Below are positions 19,475-32,156 of a stretch of 37,234 bases of DNA, one piece after another (within the stretch, counting starts at the first letter, position 1; the number at the start of each line of letters is the position of its first letter). Both the position numbers and the translations under genes were made by a program. The notes beneath the pieces were generated by a model, which saw nothing but the letters and a program-made list of their open reading frames with translations, had not been told where the DNA came from and did no database searches. This stretch comes from a virus, in the IMG/VR virus record IMGVR_UViG_3300049007_000007, positions 1-37,234 of that record; one strand, 5' to 3'.

Positions 19475-19477
19475 GAG

Positions 19478-19523
19478 TGTCACGGTAGTGTTGACAGTCG
19501 CTTGTGTCAACAGATGAGTGACA
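19478..19523. promoter_or_regulatory. Twin palindromic operator (two TGTCA-N9-TGACA sites)
   Basis: Two 19-base palindromes of the form TGTCA-N9-TGACA occupy 19478-19496 and 19505-19523, separated by 8 bases. The whole array is symmetric about 19500.5, with inner arms TGTTGACA/TGTCAACA and outer arms GTGTCAC/GTGACAC. It covers the -35 and -10 elements of the divergent promoters, the right place for a repressor site. The adjacent HTH protein is the obvious candidate ligand. Confidence 0.75.
19482..19510 (-). promoter_or_regulatory. Promoter for the zinc-finger gene
   Basis: On the minus strand, TTGACA (19510-19505) is followed by 17 bases and TACCGT (19487-19482). Seven bases further is the ATG at 19474. 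Transcription would begin at or one base before the start codon, giving a leaderless mRNA. The -35 is a perfect consensus hexamer lying within the operator. Confidence 0.6.
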
Positions 19524-19530
19524 CTAGGGT
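19502..19530 (+). promoter_or_regulatory. Promoter for the HTH gene
   Basis: TTGTGT (19502-19507), 17 bases, then TAGGGT (19525-19530). The ATG at 19537 lies 6 bases beyond the -10, so the transcript would be leaderless. The GGAG directly abutting the ATG is too close to act as a ribosome site. An alternative -35, TTGACA at 19491-19496, has only a poor -10 partner (ATGAGT). Confidence 0.5.
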
Positions 19531-19536
19531 CGGGAG

Positions 19537-19764
19537 ATGGCCTGCTACCCGGTCGGCACGGGGGAGATCGCCACGATCCTCGGCGTTGAGCACCAGACCG
19601 TCCGCGCGTGGAAGACCCGCGGCGTGCTCCCGCCCGAGCGCTGGACGATCGGCGGCCGACCCGTGTGGGACCTGGTCCTCGACATCGAGCCGTTCGCAAC
19701 CGAGACCGGACGCCTCCCAGCCAGTTACGAGCGGCCGACGCCTACTGGCGCCACACCCCGGTGA
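19537..19764 (+). CDS. Small HTH DNA-binding protein, MerR/excisionase-like (75 aa)
   Basis: A 75-residue plus-strand protein starting at ATG 19537 without a usable ribosome site. Residues 7-30 (GTGEIATILGVEHQTVRAWKTRGV) form the helix-turn-helix, followed by a wing-like segment LPPERWTIGGRPVWDLVLDI (31-50). This is the layout of MerR-type/AlpA-like phage regulators. Its last 23 bases overlap the end of the portal gene in convergent orientation. It is divergent from a zinc-finger gene across a double palindrome that overlaps both promoters, so autoregulation and control of that gene are expected. It runs against the head operon, which suggests an acquired cassette. Confidence 0.75.
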   Translation: MACYPVGTGEIATILGVEHQTVRAWKTRGVLPPERWTIGGRPVWDLVLDIEPFATETGRLPASYERPTPTGATPR

Positions 19765-24542: not shown

Positions 24543-24911
24543 TCACGCACCTCCGGTGGTCACGCGGGTCGGGTCGGGCCGCTCGACGTCGTCGTCCTCG
24601 GCGAACTCATCGGGCCGGTAGACGAGCGCCTGGTCGAAGCCCTCGGCGACCGTGACCGCGACGCCCGGCAGGCGCGTGGTCAGCTCCTGCTCGAGGTCGG
24701 CAATCTCGGCGTCGCTCAGGTGCCCGCTGGTCACGAGCACGAGGGTGTCGCCGGGCTGCACCACCACACCGTTCTGCAGCGACAGCTTGACCTCGACTTC
24801 GGCCCGTCCACGCCGGGTCGACGGGGGTGGCATCGGAGGCGGCCCGGACTTCACGACGGGCGGCGGCGCGTAGCCGCCAGGGATGTGCGGGTTCGGGGGC
24901 GTGGTGGTCAC
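24543..24911 (-). CDS. Hypothetical protein after terminase (122 aa)
   Basis: The GTG at 24911 overlaps the terminase stop (GTGA). The first 35 residues are Pro-rich and probably disordered. Residues 38-98 form a compact alpha/beta unit (AEVEVKLSLQNGVVVQPGDTLVLVTSGHLSDAEIADLEQELTTRLPGVAVTVAEGFDQALVY). The alternating pattern of strand, loop, strand, helix, strand is ordinary and no active site is evident. The C-terminal tail is acidic. Function unknown, but it is reliably coding and coupled to the terminase. Confidence 0.65.
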   Translation of the reverse strand: MTTTPPNPHIPGGYAPPPVVKSGPPPMPPPSTRRGRAEVEVKLSLQNGVVVQPGDTLVLVTSGHLSDAEIADLEQELTTRLPGVAVTVAEGFDQALVYRPDEFAEDDDVERPDPTRVTTGGA

Positions 24912-26407
24912 ATCAACCTCACTCGGGGTCGGGCGCCCAGGTCGCACTCCGCGACCACGTAGCGCATGCCGTCGCAGCCGTGGTCGTCGACCTTGAGCGG
25001 CTGGTCCTTACTGGGCTTCCCGTCCGGCGCCGGCGCCCAGATGTAGCCGGGGATCTCCTCGGCCGTGCTGGCGGGCTTCTTGGCGTCGACGAGCTCGGGG
25101 TCCCGCTCGACCACGGCGTCGCGGACGAGGAACAGGCGGGGCTTGCCGTCGCCGGCGGGCCGCAGGCGGGCCATGACGGCCTCGATCCCGTCCTTGACCG
25201 TCTTCGTGGCCGCAACGGTCGAGAGGCCGAGGTGCCGCTCGAGCGTGGCCCGGTCCTCGGCGTCGTGGTCGCAGATCACCGCCCGAGGCCGTGGCTCGAT
25301 CCACTCGCGGCGGCCGGCGGCCACCGCGTCCTTGATGTCCTCGCCCGGCACCTGGGCGACGCCCTTCACGGGGCGGGTCACGGCGGCGAGCGCGTCCTTG
25401 GCGTGGTCCTCGACCAGGCGACGGGTCCGGTAGATCTCGCGGTACAGGTAGAGCCGGCCGTCGGGGTCCTCGGCCCACCACTGGATCACGGTCGGGTTCG
25501 TGAACCCGAAGTCGACGGACCACCAGCGGGTCCAGTGCTTCGGGATGTAGAAGCGGTCGACCAGGTGGATGGCGGGGTCGTAGCCCTCGTAGATGACGCC
25601 CTCGGCGGCCACCCAGAGGCCGCGGCGCAGGCGGGCGTGGCGGACGCCCGTGAGCTTGTCGAGCTTGCCCTCGACGTAGTCGACGCCGGCGGGGGTGAGC
25701 TGGCCGGCGTCGTCGAAGAGAATCGGGTTGTCCTCGTGGCGAGACTCGAGCATCACGGTGTCGCCGCGATCCGATCGGACCTTGAGCCAGTGCGTGGGCA
25801 CGTCCGGGTTCGTGTCGGCGATCAGCTGCTGGAAGCTGACCTTCCCGTTGCGGAGCCGGGTGGTGAGCGCTTCCCAGTCCGTGGTGGTGAGCTCGATCGC
25901 CTCCTGGACGTAGATGGCGTCGTACTCGGACGACATGACCCGGGTCGCCCGGTCCATGCCACCGATCATCACGGCGGACCCGTTGTTGTAGCGGTACTGC
26001 GGGGGCTCCTCGGACGACCCGCCGTAGAACACGACGCTGCCGTTGGCGAGCAGCTCGGGCACGACGTGCTCGCGCCAGGTCACGAGGGCGGTGGAGCCGA
26101 GGCTGGCGAGCGTCTTGCGGACGATGAGGCCACGCATGCCGGGGTTGAGGAGGGCGAGCATGTTGAGCTTCTCGAGGCAGGCTCGGCTCTTGCCGGTGCC
26201 GGCCGGGCCCGAGACGAGGACCTCGGGGCGCCGGTCGTGCCAGAGCGCTCGGCATGCGCCGCGGGGTGCGTAGCTGTGGACGAGCTCGGCGGTGTCGGTC
26301 ACGTACGCCGGGCCTCGATCGCGGCCTGCTGCGCTCGGCGGCGGAGCCAGCGTCCGACCCGGCAGGTCGGGCGGGAGCACCTCGTCGGGCCGGATCGGCG
26401 GGGTCAT
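24908..26407 (-). CDS. terL: Terminase large subunit (499 aa)
   Basis: This protein is the packaging motor and headful nuclease that pumps DNA into the prohead through the portal. The N-terminal ATPase has Walker A GPAGTGKS (67-74), Walker B ending in catalytic Glu169 (AIYVQEA) and motif III ADTNP (197-201). The RNase H-like nuclease has Asp299 (SVDFGFTNP), Asp380/Asp382 (VICDHDAEDR) and DDHGCDGMRY (474-483). The start ATG at 26407 has no ribosome site, and the 226 bases before it hold inverted repeats. The gene is not directly coupled to the small subunit, because an unknown gene lies between them. Confidence 0.95.
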   Translation of the reverse strand: MTPPIRPDEVLPPDLPGRTLAPPPSAAGRDRGPAYVTDTAELVHSYAPRGACRALWHDRRPEVLVSGPAGTGKSRACLEKLNMLALLNPGMRGLIVRKTLASLGSTALVTWREHVVPELLANGSVVFYGGSSEEPPQYRYNNGSAVMIGGMDRATRVMSSEYDAIYVQEAIELTTTDWEALTTRLRNGKVSFQQLIADTNPDVPTHWLKVRSDRGDTVMLESRHEDNPILFDDAGQLTPAGVDYVEGKLDKLTGVRHARLRRGLWVAAEGVIYEGYDPAIHLVDRFYIPKHWTRWWSVDFGFTNPTVIQWWAEDPDGRLYLYREIYRTRRLVEDHAKDALAAVTRPVKGVAQVPGEDIKDAVAAGRREWIEPRPRAVICDHDAEDRATLERHLGLSTVAATKTVKDGIEAVMARLRPAGDGKPRLFLVRDAVVERDPELVDAKKPASTAEEIPGYIWAPAPDGKPSKDQPLKVDDHGCDGMRYVVAECDLGARPRVRLM

Positions 26408-26456
26408 CTGGGGCCGCCCGGGCGCCGCCGGTCATCACGAGCGGCGATGGCCGGCG

Positions 26457-26537
26457 TGCATATCCGGGGGCGTATGCAGGCCGGGTGCTGGGTCGATGCG
26501 CCCGGTTTCATGCAGAGCCGTGCATGGAATCTGCATA
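26457..26537. repeat. TGCAT-type inverted repeat cluster before terL
   Basis: The 226-base gap at 26408-26633 contains no convincing gene. In it are five TGCAT/ATGCA words, at 26457, 26474, 26510, 26521 and 26532. They form TGCATA-N10-TATGCA (26457-26478) and CATGCA-N6-TGCATG (26509-26526), plus a single TGCATA (26532-26537). A small CGGCG/CGCCG stem lies at about 26592-26604. The location between terminase genes makes a packaging site (pac/cos) or an operator plausible. Confidence 0.6.
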
Positions 26538-26633
26538 GCGCTCTGACCTGCGGGGACGCGTCAGAACAACTTGACAGAATGAGCGATCCCGGCGTTACGC
26601 CGCTCTCCCCCATCGCCGCCGCCGATAGCCGCG

Positions 26634-27218
26634 TCACGGAGCACCCGCGGTGTGGTTGGGGTCCACGAGCGCCATCGGGAGGGTGACGATCCCGAGGCGT
26701 CCCTCCGCCGTCACCTGGTGGACGTGGGGCTCCGGGTCGAGACAGGCCGGGCAGCCGTCAGGGTAGGTCGCCCACTGGTCTCCGTCGGGGTCGACAGCCA
26801 GCCTCCACCCGGACGGCAGGTCCTGCCACTCGACCTTCGCTCCGGGCGCCTCTCCGGCCCGCTCGCGAGCGGGCACCGAGCGCTCGTCATCGACGACGAC
26901 GGGCCGGCCGTAGAAGGTCGCCGCCAGCGAGCCCGCGGGCACGACCTCGAAGCGCACCCGCTCCCCTACCGGCTCGGCCGGCGCCAGCGGGTAGGTGGCG
27001 CGCAGCTCGTCCCGCTCGGCCGCGGTGACGTAGAGCGGCTCGGCGCGCTCCTCGGCGATCAGCAGCCGGGCCCGCCAGTAGGCGGCGTAGCGGTCCGCCG
27101 GCGTCCGGGTCGGCGTCCGGGCGAGCAGCAGCGCCGCGGCGATCGCGTCGCCCCGGCGCCGGCGGACGTCTGCCAGGAGGTCGCCGATGTCGGCGAGGGT
27201 CCACGAGACGTCGCTCAC
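26634..27218 (-). CDS. Unknown protein between small and large terminase genes (194 aa)
   Basis: The GTG at 27218 overlaps the stop of the small subunit gene (GTGA). The N-terminus (VSWTLADIGDLLADVRRRRGDAIAAALLLART) and residues 44-70 (YAAYWRARLLIAEERAEPLYVTAAERDEL) are helical. A beta-rich domain follows (RVRFEVVPAGSLAATFYGRPVVVDDERS), and the C-terminal section carries CPACLDPEPHVHQV (156-169), a CxxC plus two His that could bind zinc. The rest is unremarkable. It may be a packaging accessory from its position between the terminase subunits, but no relative is recognised. Confidence 0.7.
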   Translation of the reverse strand: MSDVSWTLADIGDLLADVRRRRGDAIAAALLLARTPTRTPADRYAAYWRARLLIAEERAEPLYVTAAERDELRATYPLAPAEPVGERVRFEVVPAGSLAATFYGRPVVVDDERSVPARERAGEAPGAKVEWQDLPSGWRLAVDPDGDQWATYPDGCPACLDPEPHVHQVTAEGRLGIVTLPMALVDPNHTAGAP

Positions 27219-27688
27219 CGGAGCTGGTCCAGGTCGACGCCCTCGACGTGGAACGTCACCACGCCGGTCGTGTTCAGCTTCACCGGCGAGTCGAGGCCCT
27301 CGAGCCGGGCCCGGCGCTCCATGATCCGCACGACCCGGTCGATCGCCTGCAGGGTCGGCCCGTCGTCCTCGAGCGCCTGGCCGGTCTCGTCCTGGACGAT
27401 CTTCCCGTGCGAAACGGTGATGTGCTTCCGGGTCATCACGTCCCACGCGGTCGCCTGCAGGGCGTCGAGCCGGGCGAGCTCGAGCTGGCGGAGTGTCTCG
27501 ACGGCTTCGGCCTGGTCGCGCAGGTGCTGCTCGATCGCCCGGCCGAGGTCCTGGCAGGCGGCCGCCGGCGTCGAGTAGCCGAGGGCCTCGGCGATGTGCG
27601 CCCAGGACTTCCCCTCGAGGCGCATCTGGGCGGCCTGGGTGCGGCGCTGGGCGATCTGGGGGCGCTGGGCCTTCTTCGGTCGGGCCAT
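27215..27688 (-). CDS. terS: Terminase small subunit (157 aa)
   Basis: ATG 27688 has GAGGA about 9 bases upstream. The basic N-terminus (MARPKKAQRPQIAQRRTQ) precedes a helix-turn-helix (AQMRLEGKSWAHIAEALGYSTPAAACQDLGRAI, about 20-52). The middle is a long helix (LRQLELARLDALQATAWDV) and the C-terminus carries a second helical stretch (IDRVVRIMERRARLEGLD), as in terS-like proteins that form rings on the packaging site. The gene comes first in the packaging module. It recognises the start of packaging and hands DNA to the large subunit. Size and layout match the family. Confidence 0.82.
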   Translation of the reverse strand: MARPKKAQRPQIAQRRTQAAQMRLEGKSWAHIAEALGYSTPAAACQDLGRAIEQHLRDQAEAVETLRQLELARLDALQATAWDVMTRKHITVSHGKIVQDETGQALEDDGPTLQAIDRVVRIMERRARLEGLDSPVKLNTTGVVTFHVEGVDLDQLR

Positions 27689-27751: not shown

Positions 27752-28032
27752 GGGGCTTCGGGGTGGCCGAGGGTGATGCCGTCGATGTCGGGGTCGAGGT
27801 CGGCCCAGTGGGGCCAGATGTCGAGGGGGTGGAGGCCGACGCGGCAGGCCCAGATGTCGGCTTGGCGGGCGGTGAGGCCGCAGGTGCGGTAGCGGCGGAT
27901 CCAGCGTCGGGTGATGCCGACGGCGAGGTGGAGGCTCTTGGTGTCGGCGGGGTTGATGCCGAGGCGTCGGGCGAGGTCGGCGACGGCGAAGGGGCGGGGT
28001 GTGGGGCCGAGGGGCCAGCCGGAGCGCGTCAT
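27748..28032 (-). CDS. Small HTH-type protein (94 aa)
   Basis: ATG 28032 overlaps the stop of the replication gene (ATGA) and has GAGG 7 bases upstream. Residues 15-48 (FAVADLARRLGINPADTKSLHLAVGITRRWIRRY) form a helix-turn-helix. The second part (LTARQADIWACRVGLHPLDIWPHW, 53-76) has the pattern seen in actinophage HTH proteins, where the second helical pair ends in a W-x-x-W element. It is probably a DNA-binding regulator or replication accessory. It sits between the putative initiator and the packaging genes. Confidence 0.7.
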   Translation of the reverse strand: MTRSGWPLGPTPRPFAVADLARRLGINPADTKSLHLAVGITRRWIRRYRTCGLTARQADIWACRVGLHPLDIWPHWADLDPDIDGITLGHPEAP

Positions 28033-29042
28033 GTGCCGTCCTCGGGTGTGGGGTGGAGGGCGTTGCGGGCGTCGGCGATGCCGGCGAGGTTGCGCTGGGG
28101 GTCGGGGGGCTGGCGTGGGTCGGTGGGGCCGGGCATGGCGCCGATGCCGGGCATGAAGGGCGTGCCGTCTGTGGTGGTGCGCTCGGGCTCGGGCGGCTGG
28201 GCGCCGTTGGGTGGGCCGGGTGGTTCGAGGAGGTCGGCGAGCTGGGTCGGGGTGAGGGCGGGGTTGGCGAGTAGGTGGCCGTGGCCGGCCTGGTGGTGGT
28301 CGGCGAGCTTGCCGCGGCGGGTGGCGTCGCGGTGTCGGCGTGCGTTGTGGCGGCTGGGGTTCCGGTCGAGTTCGCGGTCGACGAGGAGCTCGACGGCGAC
28401 GGCGAGGCGTTCTTGGCGGTCGTCTGCGGTTCGGACTGGGTTGTCCACAGCGGCCGCCGGCTGGGCGGTGCCGCGTGAGTTACCAGGCTGCTTGTTGTCA
28501 GCATCTGCGTAGGTGGGAGGTGGGAGGAGGGAGGAGGGAGGTTCGGACTGCTGGTCCGGACTGGTGGTCGGAACTGGTAGTTCCAACTGGTGTGACGTGC
28601 GCATTCGCTGTGCTTCGGGGTGCGGCTGGCACCTCGGGCTGTCCCAGACGCTGGCTGGGATGTGCTGCACGGCGATGAGCCGCAGCTGGCGGCTCTGGAT
28701 GGCTCGCCAGGCGTTCCACATGCCGGCGAGCAGGTTCTTGTTCTTGAGCACGGTCCTGATGTCGTGCTTGACGAACGTGCGGATGAGCAGCTCGTCGGTG
28801 TGCCGGTCGACGACCACGAAGCGGCTGGCTTCGAGCTCGTCGATGGCAGCCTCGATGCTGTCGAGGGTGGTGTCGACGGCCAGCCGGGCCCACCTCTGCG
28901 GGAGGTAGTCGAGCAGGCCGATGAGGGTGAGCTTGGGCTGGCTGAGCAGCAGCGCGTACGCGCGTTGGGCGGCGCCGCCGAGCGCGAGCCAGTCCTGGTC
29001 GTCCCAGATGGTGACGAGCAGGAGCCCGTGGTCTCGGGGCAT
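28029..29042 (-). CDS. Putative replication initiator / primosome-type protein (337 aa)
   Basis: The 337-residue protein starts at ATG 29042. Residues 7-120 look like the winged-helix domain of phage replication organisers (LLLVTIWDDQDWLALGGAAQRAYALLLSQPKLTLIGLLDYLPQRWARLA; IDELEASRFVVVDRHTDELLIRTFVKHD). The rest is long, disordered and rich in Pro, Gln, His and Arg. Codon choice in the second half is C-rich. Within it, at 28512-28592, are four 7-base and four 13-base tandem repeats. Lambda O and similar initiators also carry their origin iterons inside the coding sequence. Origin binding is an inference; no helicase or primase motif is present. Confidence 0.62.
   Translation of the reverse strand: MPRDHGLLLVTIWDDQDWLALGGAAQRAYALLLSQPKLTLIGLLDYLPQRWARLAVDTTLDSIEAAIDELEASRFVVVDRHTDELLIRTFVKHDIRTVLKNKNLLAGMWNAWRAIQSRQLRLIAVQHIPASVWDSPRCQPHPEAQRMRTSHQLELPVPTTSPDQQSEPPSSLLPPPTYADADNKQPGNSRGTAQPAAAVDNPVRTADDRQERLAVAVELLVDRELDRNPSRHNARRHRDATRRGKLADHHQAGHGHLLANPALTPTQLADLLEPPGPPNGAQPPEPERTTTDGTPFMPGIGAMPGPTDPRQPPDPQRNLAGIADARNALHPTPEDGT
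28512..28592. repeat. Tandem repeats inside the replication gene, candidate origin
   Basis: On the plus strand 28512-28539 holds GGTGGGA twice and then GGAGGGA twice (a G-run array that could form a G-quadruplex). From 28541 to 28592 there are four consecutive 13-base units: GTTCGGACTGCTG, GTCCGGACTGGTG, GTCGGAACTGGTA and GTTCCAACTGGTG (9 to 11 of 13 matches between neighbours). A tract of direct repeats beside a purine-rich block inside an initiator-like gene is the layout of an iteron origin. Confidence 0.6.
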
Positions 29043-29800: not shown

Positions 29801-29862
29801 GCGGCCTCCCACTCGGGCCCGCCGGTGCTCACACCGAGGGCGGTGTGGCGGAGCGGGGTCAT
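29797..29862 (-). CDS. Micro-ORF linked by overlaps on both sides (21 aa)
   Basis: ATG 29862 overlaps the stop of the 47-aa zinc-ribbon gene and its own stop overlaps the ATG of the next gene, both as ATGA. The 21-residue product (MTPLRHTALGVSTGGPEWEAA) has no visible domain. The double coupling suggests it is translated. It may serve only to carry ribosomes from one gene to the next. Confidence 0.4.
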   Translation of the reverse strand: MTPLRHTALGVSTGGPEWEAA

Positions 29863-30002
29863 GGCGTCGTCCTTGCGGTGGCGCGGCAGTGCGCGCAGCG
29901 GTCGTTGGGGTTGCGGGGGTCGATGGGTAGGGCCAGCACCTGGCCGCAGGCGAGGCAGCCAGGCCGCTGGCCGTCGAGGTCGTCGATGTCCTGGGTGGGC
30001 AC
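29859..30002 (-). CDS. Small zinc-ribbon protein (47 aa)
   Basis: The GTG at 30002 gives a 47-residue product with CLAC (16-19) and CAHC (36-39) pairs separated by 16 residues, a clear four-cysteine zinc ribbon. The same frame is open upstream all the way into the DUF4326 gene at 30773, so fusion with that protein cannot be excluded. The intervening residues read like antisense of the plus-strand gene, and I prefer a separate start here. Its 3' end is coupled to the 21-aa micro-ORF. Confidence 0.55.
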   Translation of the reverse strand: MPTQDIDDLDGQRPGCLACGQVLALPIDPRNPNDRCAHCRATARTTP

Positions 30003-30773
30003 GGCCAGAGCACCGGGTCTGCTGGGTCCAACCTGGACGTCGGCAACGCACGGACGTACGTTCGTGTCGTGGTCGTTCTGGACTGGCACAAGACCTACGG
30101 CGGCTGGCACGGCCACCACTTCCGCGTGCCCGGCGACAGCCCCGAGTACGGGCCCGGGCTGCTCGCGGCGATCGTCGTGCGGCGCACGGACACTCTGTGG
30201 GTCGACGGCGACGACGGGCTCCAGCGTCCCCAGTTCGACGGGCACTGGTGGGCGGTGTTCGTCAACGACGGCCGGGGCGGCCAGTTCGAGGTCGGTGACC
30301 GGTGGGACTCGGAGGATGAGGCGAAGGCGGCGGCCGAGGCTCACGTCCCTCTCCTGAGCGTTGGCCAACTCGAGGAGGACGTCGGCGTGGCAGGGCTGGT
30401 CGAGCGGGCACCAGCACGCCAGGTCGTGACCGACGAGGTCGCCGAGGTAGTGCGTGCGGGTGTGCTCGCCGTCGAGGTCGGTGAAGGCGGCGTTCAGGCT
30501 CTGACGGAACAGGTCGATCGCGAACTCGGTCGCGGTGCGCTTCGAGTCCCACGCTCCCCAGCGGGCGCCGCTCTCTATGCCCCACTTGTCGACGTGGACG
30601 ACCGTCCAGAACGGGCCGGTCTCGGAGTAGCTACCCGAGCCGGGACGTCCTGCCGGGACGCGGTTCCTGCGGACGGCGTAGGGGTTGCGCCATCGGCTCG
30701 GCCGGGCGACTGAGACAGCGCCCTCGGGCTTACGCCAGCCCTTCGTGCGGCGCAGCTGGATGCGCTCAGCCAC
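29859..30773 (-). CDS. DUF4326-family protein, reading frame runs on through an opposing gene (up to 304 aa)
   Basis: The GTG at 30773 overlaps the upstream stop by 8 bases and has GGAGG 5 bases upstream. Residues 3-137 form a complete DUF4326 domain: IQLRRTKGWRKPEGAVSVAR, SRWRNPYAV, HYLGDLVGHDLACWCPLDQPCHADVLLELAN. A short conserved C-terminal part with CWCPLDxPCHADVLLELA is typical. The family normally ends here. In this genome no stop follows, and the frame continues for 167 more codons through antisense of the plus-strand gene and into the zinc-ribbon gene. GC at third positions drops after the domain end. The true 3' end is therefore uncertain. DUF4326 function is unknown. Confidence 0.72.
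   Translation of the reverse strand: MAERIQLRRTKGWRKPEGAVSVARPSRWRNPYAVRRNRVPAGRPGSGSYSETGPFWTVVHVDKWGIESGARWGAWDSKRTATEFAIDLFRQSLNAAFTDLDGEHTRTHYLGDLVGHDLACWCPLDQPCHADVLLELANAQERDVSLGRRLRLILRVPPVTDLELAAPAVVDEHRPPVPVELGTLEPVVAVDPQSVRAPHDDRREQPGPVLGAVAGHAEVVAVPAAVGLVPVQNDHDTNVRPCVADVQVGPSRPGALAVPTQDIDDLDGQRPGCLACGQVLALPIDPRNPNDRCAHCRATARTTP
30034..30062 (+). promoter_or_regulatory. Candidate promoter for plus-strand gene at 30069
   Basis: TGGACG (30034-30039), 17 bases and TACGTT (30057-30062) stand 6 bases upstream of the GTG at 30069, so the message would be leaderless. The palindrome ACGTACGT (30054-30061) overlaps the -10. The -35 matches the consensus at 4 of 6 positions. Confidence 0.4.
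30069..30713 (+). CDS. Plus-strand unknown protein; only first ~95 codons look coding
   Basis: A GTG at 30069 opens a frame that stays open to 30713. The first 95 residues are protein-like (WHKTYGGWHGHHFRVPGDSPEYGPG; FDGHWWAVFVNDGRGGQFEVGDRWDSEDEAKAAAEAHV) with G/C at nearly every third position. From about 30355 the frame runs antisense to the DUF4326 gene and codon quality collapses. The real stop is missing at the expected place, so the 3' end may be over-extended. No ribosome site precedes the start. It is a small beta-rich protein of unknown function, read against the main operon. Confidence 0.6.
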   Translation: MVVLDWHKTYGGWHGHHFRVPGDSPEYGPGLLAAIVVRRTDTLWVDGDDGLQRPQFDGHWWAVFVNDGRGGQFEVGDRWDSEDEAKAAAEAHVPLLSVGQLEEDVGVAGLVERAPARQVVTDEVAEVVRAGVLAVEVGEGGVQALTEQVDRELGRGALRVPRSPAGAALYAPLVDVDDRPERAGLGVATRAGTSCRDAVPADGVGVAPSARPGD

Positions 30774-30993: not shown

Positions 30994-31342
30994 GATCCCG
31001 CCCGAGGTTGCGGAGGTCGAACCCGTCGGCTGACCGGCCCTGCTTGTTGCCGGTCAGAGCGAGGTTGTAGATCTCCTCGATCCTGCGCGTCGCCTTGGCC
31101 ATTGCGGCCTCCTGGGACTCCTTGATCTTCGGAACGAGGTCGTCCATATGGCGACGCACCTCGTCGCTGATCTCCGCTCGGACGACGTCAGCCACCGCTG
31201 CCCTGGCGGCTTCGAGGTCACTCGCGAGGGCCTTGCGTTCGCGCCGGACCTCGCGCAGCTCGGAGCGGACCTCGCCCAGGACCTGCTTGGCTTCGGCGCT
31301 GGCGGCGGCGAGCTGGTCGACGAACGTCTCAAGCTCAGCCAC
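30986..31342 (-). CDS. Coiled-coil protein (118 aa)
   Basis: The GTG at 31342 overlaps the upstream DUF5131 stop by 8 bases (GTGGCTGA). Residues 2-95 are a long charged helix with heptad spacing (LETFVDQLAAASAEAKQVLGEVRSELREVRRERKALASDLEAARAAVADVV), likely a parallel coiled coil. The C-terminus is Gly/Arg-rich. There is no membrane segment or enzyme motif. It could act as an adaptor or oligomerisation partner for its neighbours, with which it is translationally coupled. Confidence 0.68.
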   Translation of the reverse strand: MAELETFVDQLAAASAEAKQVLGEVRSELREVRRERKALASDLEAARAAVADVVRAEISDEVRRHMDDLVPKIKESQEAAMAKATRRIEEIYNLALTGNKQGRSADGFDLRNLGRDRG

Positions 31343-32156
31343 GGGTCACCGCCTCGGGCATCTGGTCCCAGGTGCGCCCGTCGATGTGCCGGCCGTTGGC
31401 CTTCGGCGTCCGGCCGCCCCACTGCTTGAAGAAGAACGGGACACCGGCGTCGACGCAGCGGTCGCGGATCTCGTACACCCACACCGGGTCGACTGGGCGT
31501 GCGCCCGGCCCGGACTCACCGCCGGCGATCACCCAGTCGATGCCGGTGAGGTCGAGCGACGGGAGCGGCCCGAGGAGGGGCTCGAGGCTGAGGAACCGGA
31601 CGGCGGCCGGCGGAGCCCGGAGGTGGTCGGCCCGGAAGGTGTACCGGTCGGACTCGATCGACGTGCCCAGCCAGACGTTCGGGAGCGGCCAGGTCTTCGA
31701 CTCGTTCCAGCGAAGCTGGTGGTCGCGCCAGATCGGGCCGCCGTAGGCCGACCCCTCGTTGGCTGCCCACTCGGCGAGCACGTCGGCCATGCGCTGCGGG
31801 CGCTTCGTGAGCACCTGGAAGGTGTGCTGGCCGGCGGCCGCCATCGTCGCCCAGACCGAGCCGATGAACTCGATCGGCACGTCGCGATGGAACAGGTCCG
31901 ACATGCTGTTGACGAACACGCGGGCCGGCTTCCGCCAGTGCAGCGGGGCGTCCAGCGTGTCCGGGTGGACGCTCAGCCCGAAGCCGGGGCCGCTGGTGCG
32001 GGGGTCGCCGTCGGCCTGGTACTTGGCCTGGCCCATGGCCTTGAGCCGGCGGGCGAGGGTGAGGGCGTAGCAGTTGTCGCAGCCGGGCGAGACCCGGTCG
32101 CAGCCGGTGGTCGGGTTCCACACCCGGTCGGTCCACTCGATCGAGGTCTCAGCCAT
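31335..32156 (-). CDS. DUF5131 / phage Gp37-Gp68 family protein (273 aa)
   Basis: ATG 32156 lies 8 bases inside the ASCH gene (ATGGCTGA). The N-terminus carries the signature IEWTDRVWNPTTGCDRVSPGCDNCYA (6-31) with Cys19, Cys26 and Cys29. Later motifs are FVNSMSDLFH, QVLTKRPQRM, NVWLGTSIES, RFLSLEPLLG, WVIAGGESGPGARP and FFFKQWGG, which mark this family along its whole length. The fold is predicted to be a radical-SAM-like barrel with the three cysteines as a possible cluster site. The reaction is not known. It is paired with an ASCH protein, and a nucleic-acid or nucleoside modification role is possible. Confidence 0.9.
   Translation of the reverse strand: MAETSIEWTDRVWNPTTGCDRVSPGCDNCYALTLARRLKAMGQAKYQADGDPRTSGPGFGLSVHPDTLDAPLHWRKPARVFVNSMSDLFHRDVPIEFIGSVWATMAAAGQHTFQVLTKRPQRMADVLAEWAANEGSAYGGPIWRDHQLRWNESKTWPLPNVWLGTSIESDRYTFRADHLRAPPAAVRFLSLEPLLGPLPSLDLTGIDWVIAGGESGPGARPVDPVWVYEIRDRCVDAGVPFFFKQWGGRTPKANGRHIDGRTWDQMPEAVTRG

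Follow-up and report, generated by a model that had tools for sequence, protein, structure and literature searches.

Packaging loci beside terminase genes are a kind of phage element that is already known. The lambda-type cos site comprises cosN together with cosB, whose R sites bind the small terminase, plus an IHF site, and an HNH gene next to the terminase genes is a common partner of cos sites. Such sites have usually been mapped for each phage individually, from the sequenced ends of virion DNA. Phage SirDuracell is presumably a member of cluster E, which is consistent with its genus (Kostyavirus) and its end sequence. Its record terminates in CGCTTGTCA, which is given as the 3' overhang of nine cluster E phages in PMC11465865. 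Eight ATGCA sites (75753-75845) precede this end and are followed by a core sequence (75910-75920), which stops 53 bp short of the cos end at 75973. Redno2, which we take to be a cluster J phage in keeping with its genus and end, carries the core, then GTTCGA words and then an ATCC end. The overhang ATCC is listed for six cluster J phages in PMC3706429. The right end of BigNuz (Bignuzvirus) holds an HNH gene, a gene annotated as terS, the core and the genome end, and terL lies at the other end of the record. In four Streptomyces podophages, the CTCTGACCTGC 11-mer of the core lies approximately 360-410 bp outside a terminal repeat of 253-396 bp. In Dagobah, whose end was called by PhageTerm according to PMC7650747, a TGCAAA array runs to position 1165, which leaves 22 bp to the inner end of the 1187-bp terminal repeat.

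We compared these systems with an IMG/VR virus record that is linear, 37,234 bases long and of 72% GC; its whole length is referred to as the window. Toward terL, the order of transcription is probable terS, gX, a gap at 26408-26633 and terL. The terL gene (24908-26407, minus strand) encodes the terminase large subunit and matched phrog_2 (E 2.3e-29) as well as Pfam Terminase_3 above the cut-off. The probable terS (27215-27688, minus strand) matched phrog_645 (E 4.4e-31); this family is called 'RNase E' in PHROGs, a label that looks wrong because the gene is, by position, the small terminase subunit. Between terS and the gap lies gX (26634-27218, minus strand), which encodes an unknown protein, overlaps terS by 4 bp and has a GC3 of 0.93. 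A terS homologue upstream of terL, often with a 4-bp overlap, was present in 83 of 112 entries, the window included. The viral contigs held no close relative of gX, and gX and terS were abandoned as search baits after the viral contigs gave no relatives. A PHROGs scan of 30 ORFs of the window found no HNH gene. Elsewhere in the window, a DUF4326 gene (29859-30773, E 7.4e-18) and a DUF5131 gene (31335-32156, E 3.6e-97) were clear.

The contig continues through the gap without a break. G+C codon periodicity was absent across 26400-26640, indicating that the gap is non-coding and that the initial annotation was right to call it gene-free. A 77-aa ORF (26404-26637, minus strand) occupies precisely the whole gap and reaches 4 bp into the gene on either side. 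It was rejected as a gene, as it lacked coding bias (GC3 0.72, compared with 0.95 for terL), and tblastn against 50,697 phage records gave no match at E ≤ 1. The gap thus provides non-coding DNA beside terS and terL, as at a cos site. A structured RNA was also considered and rejected, as an Rfam search of 26200-26900 gave no match, nor did searches of six core loci, and DNA folding was ordinary.

Within the gap, we confirmed five TGCAT/ATGCA words in 81 bases, starting at 26457, 26474, 26510, 26521 and 26532 (span 26457-26536), and their previously described arrangement could be read directly from the letters. Word 1 (TGCATA, 26532-26536, plus strand) stands singly. Words 2 (26521-26525, plus strand) and 3 (26510-26514, minus strand) form the right and left halves of CATGCA-N6-TGCATG, and words 4 (26474-26478, minus strand) and 5 (26457-26461, plus strand) form the right and left halves of TGCATA-N10-TATGCA. 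All five can be read as YATGCAS, and their centres are spaced 17, 36, 11 and 11 bp apart. The words had also been expected to be rare at this GC content, which did not hold: the whole window contains 22 of them, compared with a shuffle mean of 24.7, and what is unusual is their clustering alone. Five TGCAT words in 81 bp were reached in 1 of 1000 shuffles, but an equally extreme cluster of some 5-mer anywhere in the window arose in 44 of 200 shuffles. After this look-elsewhere correction, the TGCAT cluster alone is not significant, so no claim is based on the words by themselves. TGACA ranked second in clustering among the 5-mers of the window, with four copies in 81 bp from 19478; this cluster (19476-19560) has ACACT adjoining and lies approximately 200 bp beyond where the portal gene ends.

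The gap also contains the conserved core CTCTGACCTGCGG (26541-26553, plus strand), which is the window's only exact copy and lies on the strand opposite to terL. Its chance expectation was 0.004 in the window and 2.4e-5 in the gap. Word 1 lies 4 bp from the core, and all five words are on its terL side. The core was first spotted by eye in the arrays of relatives, and the counting came afterwards.

The SirDuracell end resembles the window in combining an ATGCA array with a CTCTGACCTGCGG core in a non-coding stretch, and in both the core lies on the strand opposite to terL. The core and the ATGCA array are accordingly shared with a cos end whose overhang is published (PMC11465865). The order differs: SirDuracell has words, core and end, whereas the window has its words on the terL side of the core, and terS follows the end in SirDuracell, whereas terS and gX precede the gap in the window. 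BigNuz resembles the window in the placement of the core between a terS-like gene and terL, but it has a second gene annotated as terS before terL, its core is on the terL strand, and its last 330 bp hold a single ATGCA word rather than an array. The likeness to a lambda-type cos site consists of short repeated protein sites, predicted in the window, beside a conserved element near the terminase genes; the words, core and host factor of the lambda type are unrelated to those of the window, whose cut and binding are putative. In Dagobah (word array) and the four Streptomyces podophages (11-mer core), the elements lie near terminal-repeat borders, whereas the window is known from its sequence alone.

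To assess where the core lies in other phages, we searched 50,697 named phage records. Two core queries gave 533 and 603 matches, totals that are swollen by the redundancy of the collection, and the reversed query matched 14 of the 50,697 records, all inside annotated genes. We sampled 60 of the 533 and 60 of the 603 records, spread over each set, and took one best place per record. The results showed that the core lay within 1 kb of a record end in 48/60 and 51/60 records (1.8 and 2.3 expected), or 99 of the 120 combined (approximately 4 expected), which include near-identical phages and a few phages twice. It lay within 250 bp of an end in 41/60 and 49/60 records, and the median core-to-end distance was 53 bp among sampled records with the core within 1 kb of an end; in 12/60 and 9/60 records the core was more than 1 kb from the ends. 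The ends that were read belonged to Cheoctovirus, Kostyavirus, Omegavirus, Bignuzvirus and Soupsvirus. The exact core was absent from the end segments examined of five further relatives, Xkcd426, Mischief19, phiSAJS1, Geonosis and YDN12. Measured from the right end, 1-mismatch cores lay at 2.7 kb in Xkcd426 and at 4.3 kb in Mischief19, and Xkcd426 and BabyGotBac had core matches in mid-genome. At the right end of Ramsey (L417), two cores form a facing inverted repeat with 28 bp between the 11-mers. In Immanuel3 (L269), TGACCTG words lie approximately 25-30 bp outside both terminal-repeat borders, a feature not kept in Abafar.

We also scanned viral contigs for GCTCTGACCTGCGG, which gave at least 80 loci, using the reversed core as control; in IMG/VR the two were compared by context alone. 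The consensus runs on beyond GCTCTGACCTGCGG as WWWYRC, and the reversed control had no such extension. Among the matches listed, the core lay in an ORF of at least 100 aa in 31/80 cases, compared with 69/80 control words. TerL was encoded within 1 kb of the core in 20/80 listed matches, 19 of them with the core upstream of TerL, compared with 1/80 and none upstream for the listed control matches. Eighteen of these 20 listed cores were on the TerL strand, unlike the core of the window. Three of the four TerL queries behind this proximity count were drawn from the core set, and the scan of flanking genes is the fairer test. That scan took 98 of the 125 ORFs flanking cores and 90 of the 192 from the control set; contig-edge ORFs, some short ORFs, L171:3065-5563, the L216 tape-measure ORF and list tails were dropped, and its tables cover the 25 commonest families. 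The 98 core-flanking genes included 13 of TerL families, 4 of terS families, at least 5 HNH and 6 RusA-like genes. The 90 control genes, a set that includes the ORF holding the control word whereas the core set has no such ORF, included two TerL families with one member each (1 or 2 TerL). These results indicate that the core is, in many phages, a marker of gaps at genome ends and close to terminase genes. A strong word cluster surrounded 12/85 viral-locus cores among the matches listed, compared with 47/2000 random places, so a word array is not a constant companion of the core. In phages of approximately 45% GC with a phrog_38 TerL (L206, L211, L175 and similar), TGTGA-N6-TCACA-like dyads stand between the core and terL. 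L180 (13282-13317) has a pair of facing cores that make up an inverted repeat, with 12 bp between the 13-mers.

To follow the words themselves, we examined relatives of the window's TerL, comprising the best 80 of 481 viral loci, 53 bacterial loci and named phages, of which Thermobifida phage P1312 was the top match (62% identity). Many relatives carried a dense array of a short, phage-specific word upstream of terS (GGTAG, AGTACC, AGATAC, AGTTGG, GAGCC, CGTGATA and others). Within this TerL family, strong arrays were present in the first kb upstream of terS in 16/58 loci, compared with 7/90 bins further up and 0/186 downstream of terL. The core, with at most 1 mismatch, lay within 60 bp of 11/41 strong arrays, compared with 14/1504 control stretches; two of the 11 (L095 and L099) are 1-mismatch matches and possibly due to chance. 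Both counts exclude 11 near-duplicate loci, L104 and L107-L112, and retain the related pairs L047/L072 and L053/L062; the position count further excludes loci that lack terS, whose terS is more than 2.5 kb from terL, or whose upstream DNA is shorter than 1 kb. The array of the window itself is below the strong-array threshold, is outside the 41 and lies after terS and gX.

At least three TGCAT sites in 120 bp were found in 13 relative loci, five of which were read. The clusters of L068, L073 and Dagobah are non-coding, that of L072 falls under a small ORF situated between terS and terL, and that of L036 is inside a gene. No core with at most 1 mismatch to CTCTGACCTGC was found in the first 6.8 kb of P1312, which include its terminase genes, and Dagobah (52% TerL identity) had no core at its ends. 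The Dagobah end sequence was tried as a second core and rejected; its exact 10-mer GACGGTCCGA also occurs upstream of terS in L016, L066 and L070, of which the last two have similar flanks. Dagobah (L272) also has a stronger second array at 38551-38738, GGTTCA in 12 copies, far from the ends and beside a RadB-like gene.

From these comparisons, we propose that the gap is probably the packaging-initiation (cos-like) locus of this phage, because its five words stand beside a core that, in the named phages sampled, lies mostly near genome ends. The initial annotation had suggested either a packaging site or an operator; its first suggestion gained comparative support through the core, which it had overlooked, and the operator is less supported. 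In the mechanism that we envisage, the TGCAT words would bind a phage-specific protein, most likely TerS (27215-27688), and TerS would load TerL at the gap. TerL would then cut the concatemer nearby, perhaps within 26481-26505, and package from there. As a guess, the candidate cut region is the imperfect dyad CCGGGTGC-N9-GCGCCCGG (26481-26505) between words 4 and 3, whose centre is 47 bp from the core; if the common core-to-end distance of 53 bp holds here, the cut would fall near this dyad. The dyad is not singled out, since the gap holds 13 dyads of this kind (mean 2.2, with none reaching 13, in 300 mononucleotide shuffles). The core was rejected as the cut itself, since Dagobah and the podophages are cut elsewhere. 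The reading of the core as an RNA leader or promoter was rejected because family members carry the core in either orientation with respect to terL. Since the end, neighbour, bacterial and orientation data include contrary cases, packaging sites are not the only places where the core occurs, and we put the packaging assignment of the gap at probable and no higher.

More tentatively, CTCTGACCTGCGG(WWWYRC) may be a genome-end element of unrelated tailed phages, possibly read by a host factor, to which each phage would add an array specific to its own TerS. The range of such an element might, equally tentatively, take in phages with cos ends and with DTR ends, both high-GC actinophages and those of 42-50% GC. 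Full-text searches of the open-licence literature with the core letters and topic words found no description of the core, and a phage-specific array joined to a core conserved across unrelated phages was likewise not found described there. A shared core with a phage-specific array would allow the packaging locus to be predicted from sequence, uncultured phages included, and would link each TerS to its probable site. A further question is what reads one asymmetric sequence of 13-20 bp across phages of many hosts.

Operator, replication and attP roles were each less supported than a packaging role. In the first, the words would serve a repressor or late activator as operators and would stand ahead of the head operon, from terL onward. 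The gap does lie at the start of the head gene run, the TGCAT words are paired as inverted repeats, and in the relatives L090, L094 and L101 arrays of spaced palindromes lie shortly before an ATG. No sigma-70-like promoter was found in the gap, although the consensus is a poor test for this GC content and host, and transcriptional control leaves the genome-end placement of the core and its mixed orientation to terL unexplained. We therefore regard an operator as unlikely. A replication origin, with the words as iterons, seems to us quite unlikely. Word arrays look like iterons, a protein encoded at 28029-29042, approximately 1.4 kb from the gap, has an N-terminal match to replication initiation families, and some cores adjoin primase or helicase genes (L217 and L209) or a relative of replication initiation proteins (L149). 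Against an origin, most sampled cores of named phages lie within 250 bp of an end, TerL families are the commonest neighbours of the core, and GC skew has no turn at 26.5 kb.

The words could also be arm-type sites of a tyrosine integrase at an attP, given that putative arm-type sites TGCATACg/tPuPy are reported for cluster J mycobacteriophages in PMC3706429. Cores were found beside integrases in L161, L207 and L226 and approximately 125 bp before int in Adephagia, and a primer for the phiJoe int-attP fragment, as given in PMC5311408, contains the core. An attP is nevertheless very unlikely here: the 37 kb record, which may be partial, has no tyrosine integrase (no PF00589 match), and the ATGCA array of SirDuracell sits at a genome end. 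Moreover, the words flank the core on both sides, unlike at a recombined attP, in two contigs of bacteria that presumably carry integrated phages, L085 (165 kb; 1-mismatch core) and L105 (1.1 Mb). A chance cluster in a functionless spacer would fit the 44/200 shuffles and the ordinary DNA folding of the gap (z -0.20), but the core and the words coincide here and recur together at the SirDuracell end, which makes chance most improbable.

The occurrence of the core beside integrases and in bacterial chromosomes calls for a reason of its own. In nine actinobacterial genomes (G001-G009), which were picked for carrying relatives and not at random, we counted 51 copies of CTSTGACCTGCGG, compared with 6 of the reversed pattern, and 20 of 21 fetched bacterial copies were outside predicted ORFs. 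A core inside a tRNA was considered and rejected, since no tRNA was found in the window and ARAGORN placed one at 2 of 20 bacterial core loci. At L276, a tRNA-like sequence was seen by eye just before the core, and ARAGORN reported none. The two ARAGORN tRNAs among the 20 loci (L273-L292) lie approximately 160 bp (L286) and 100 bp (L291) from the core.
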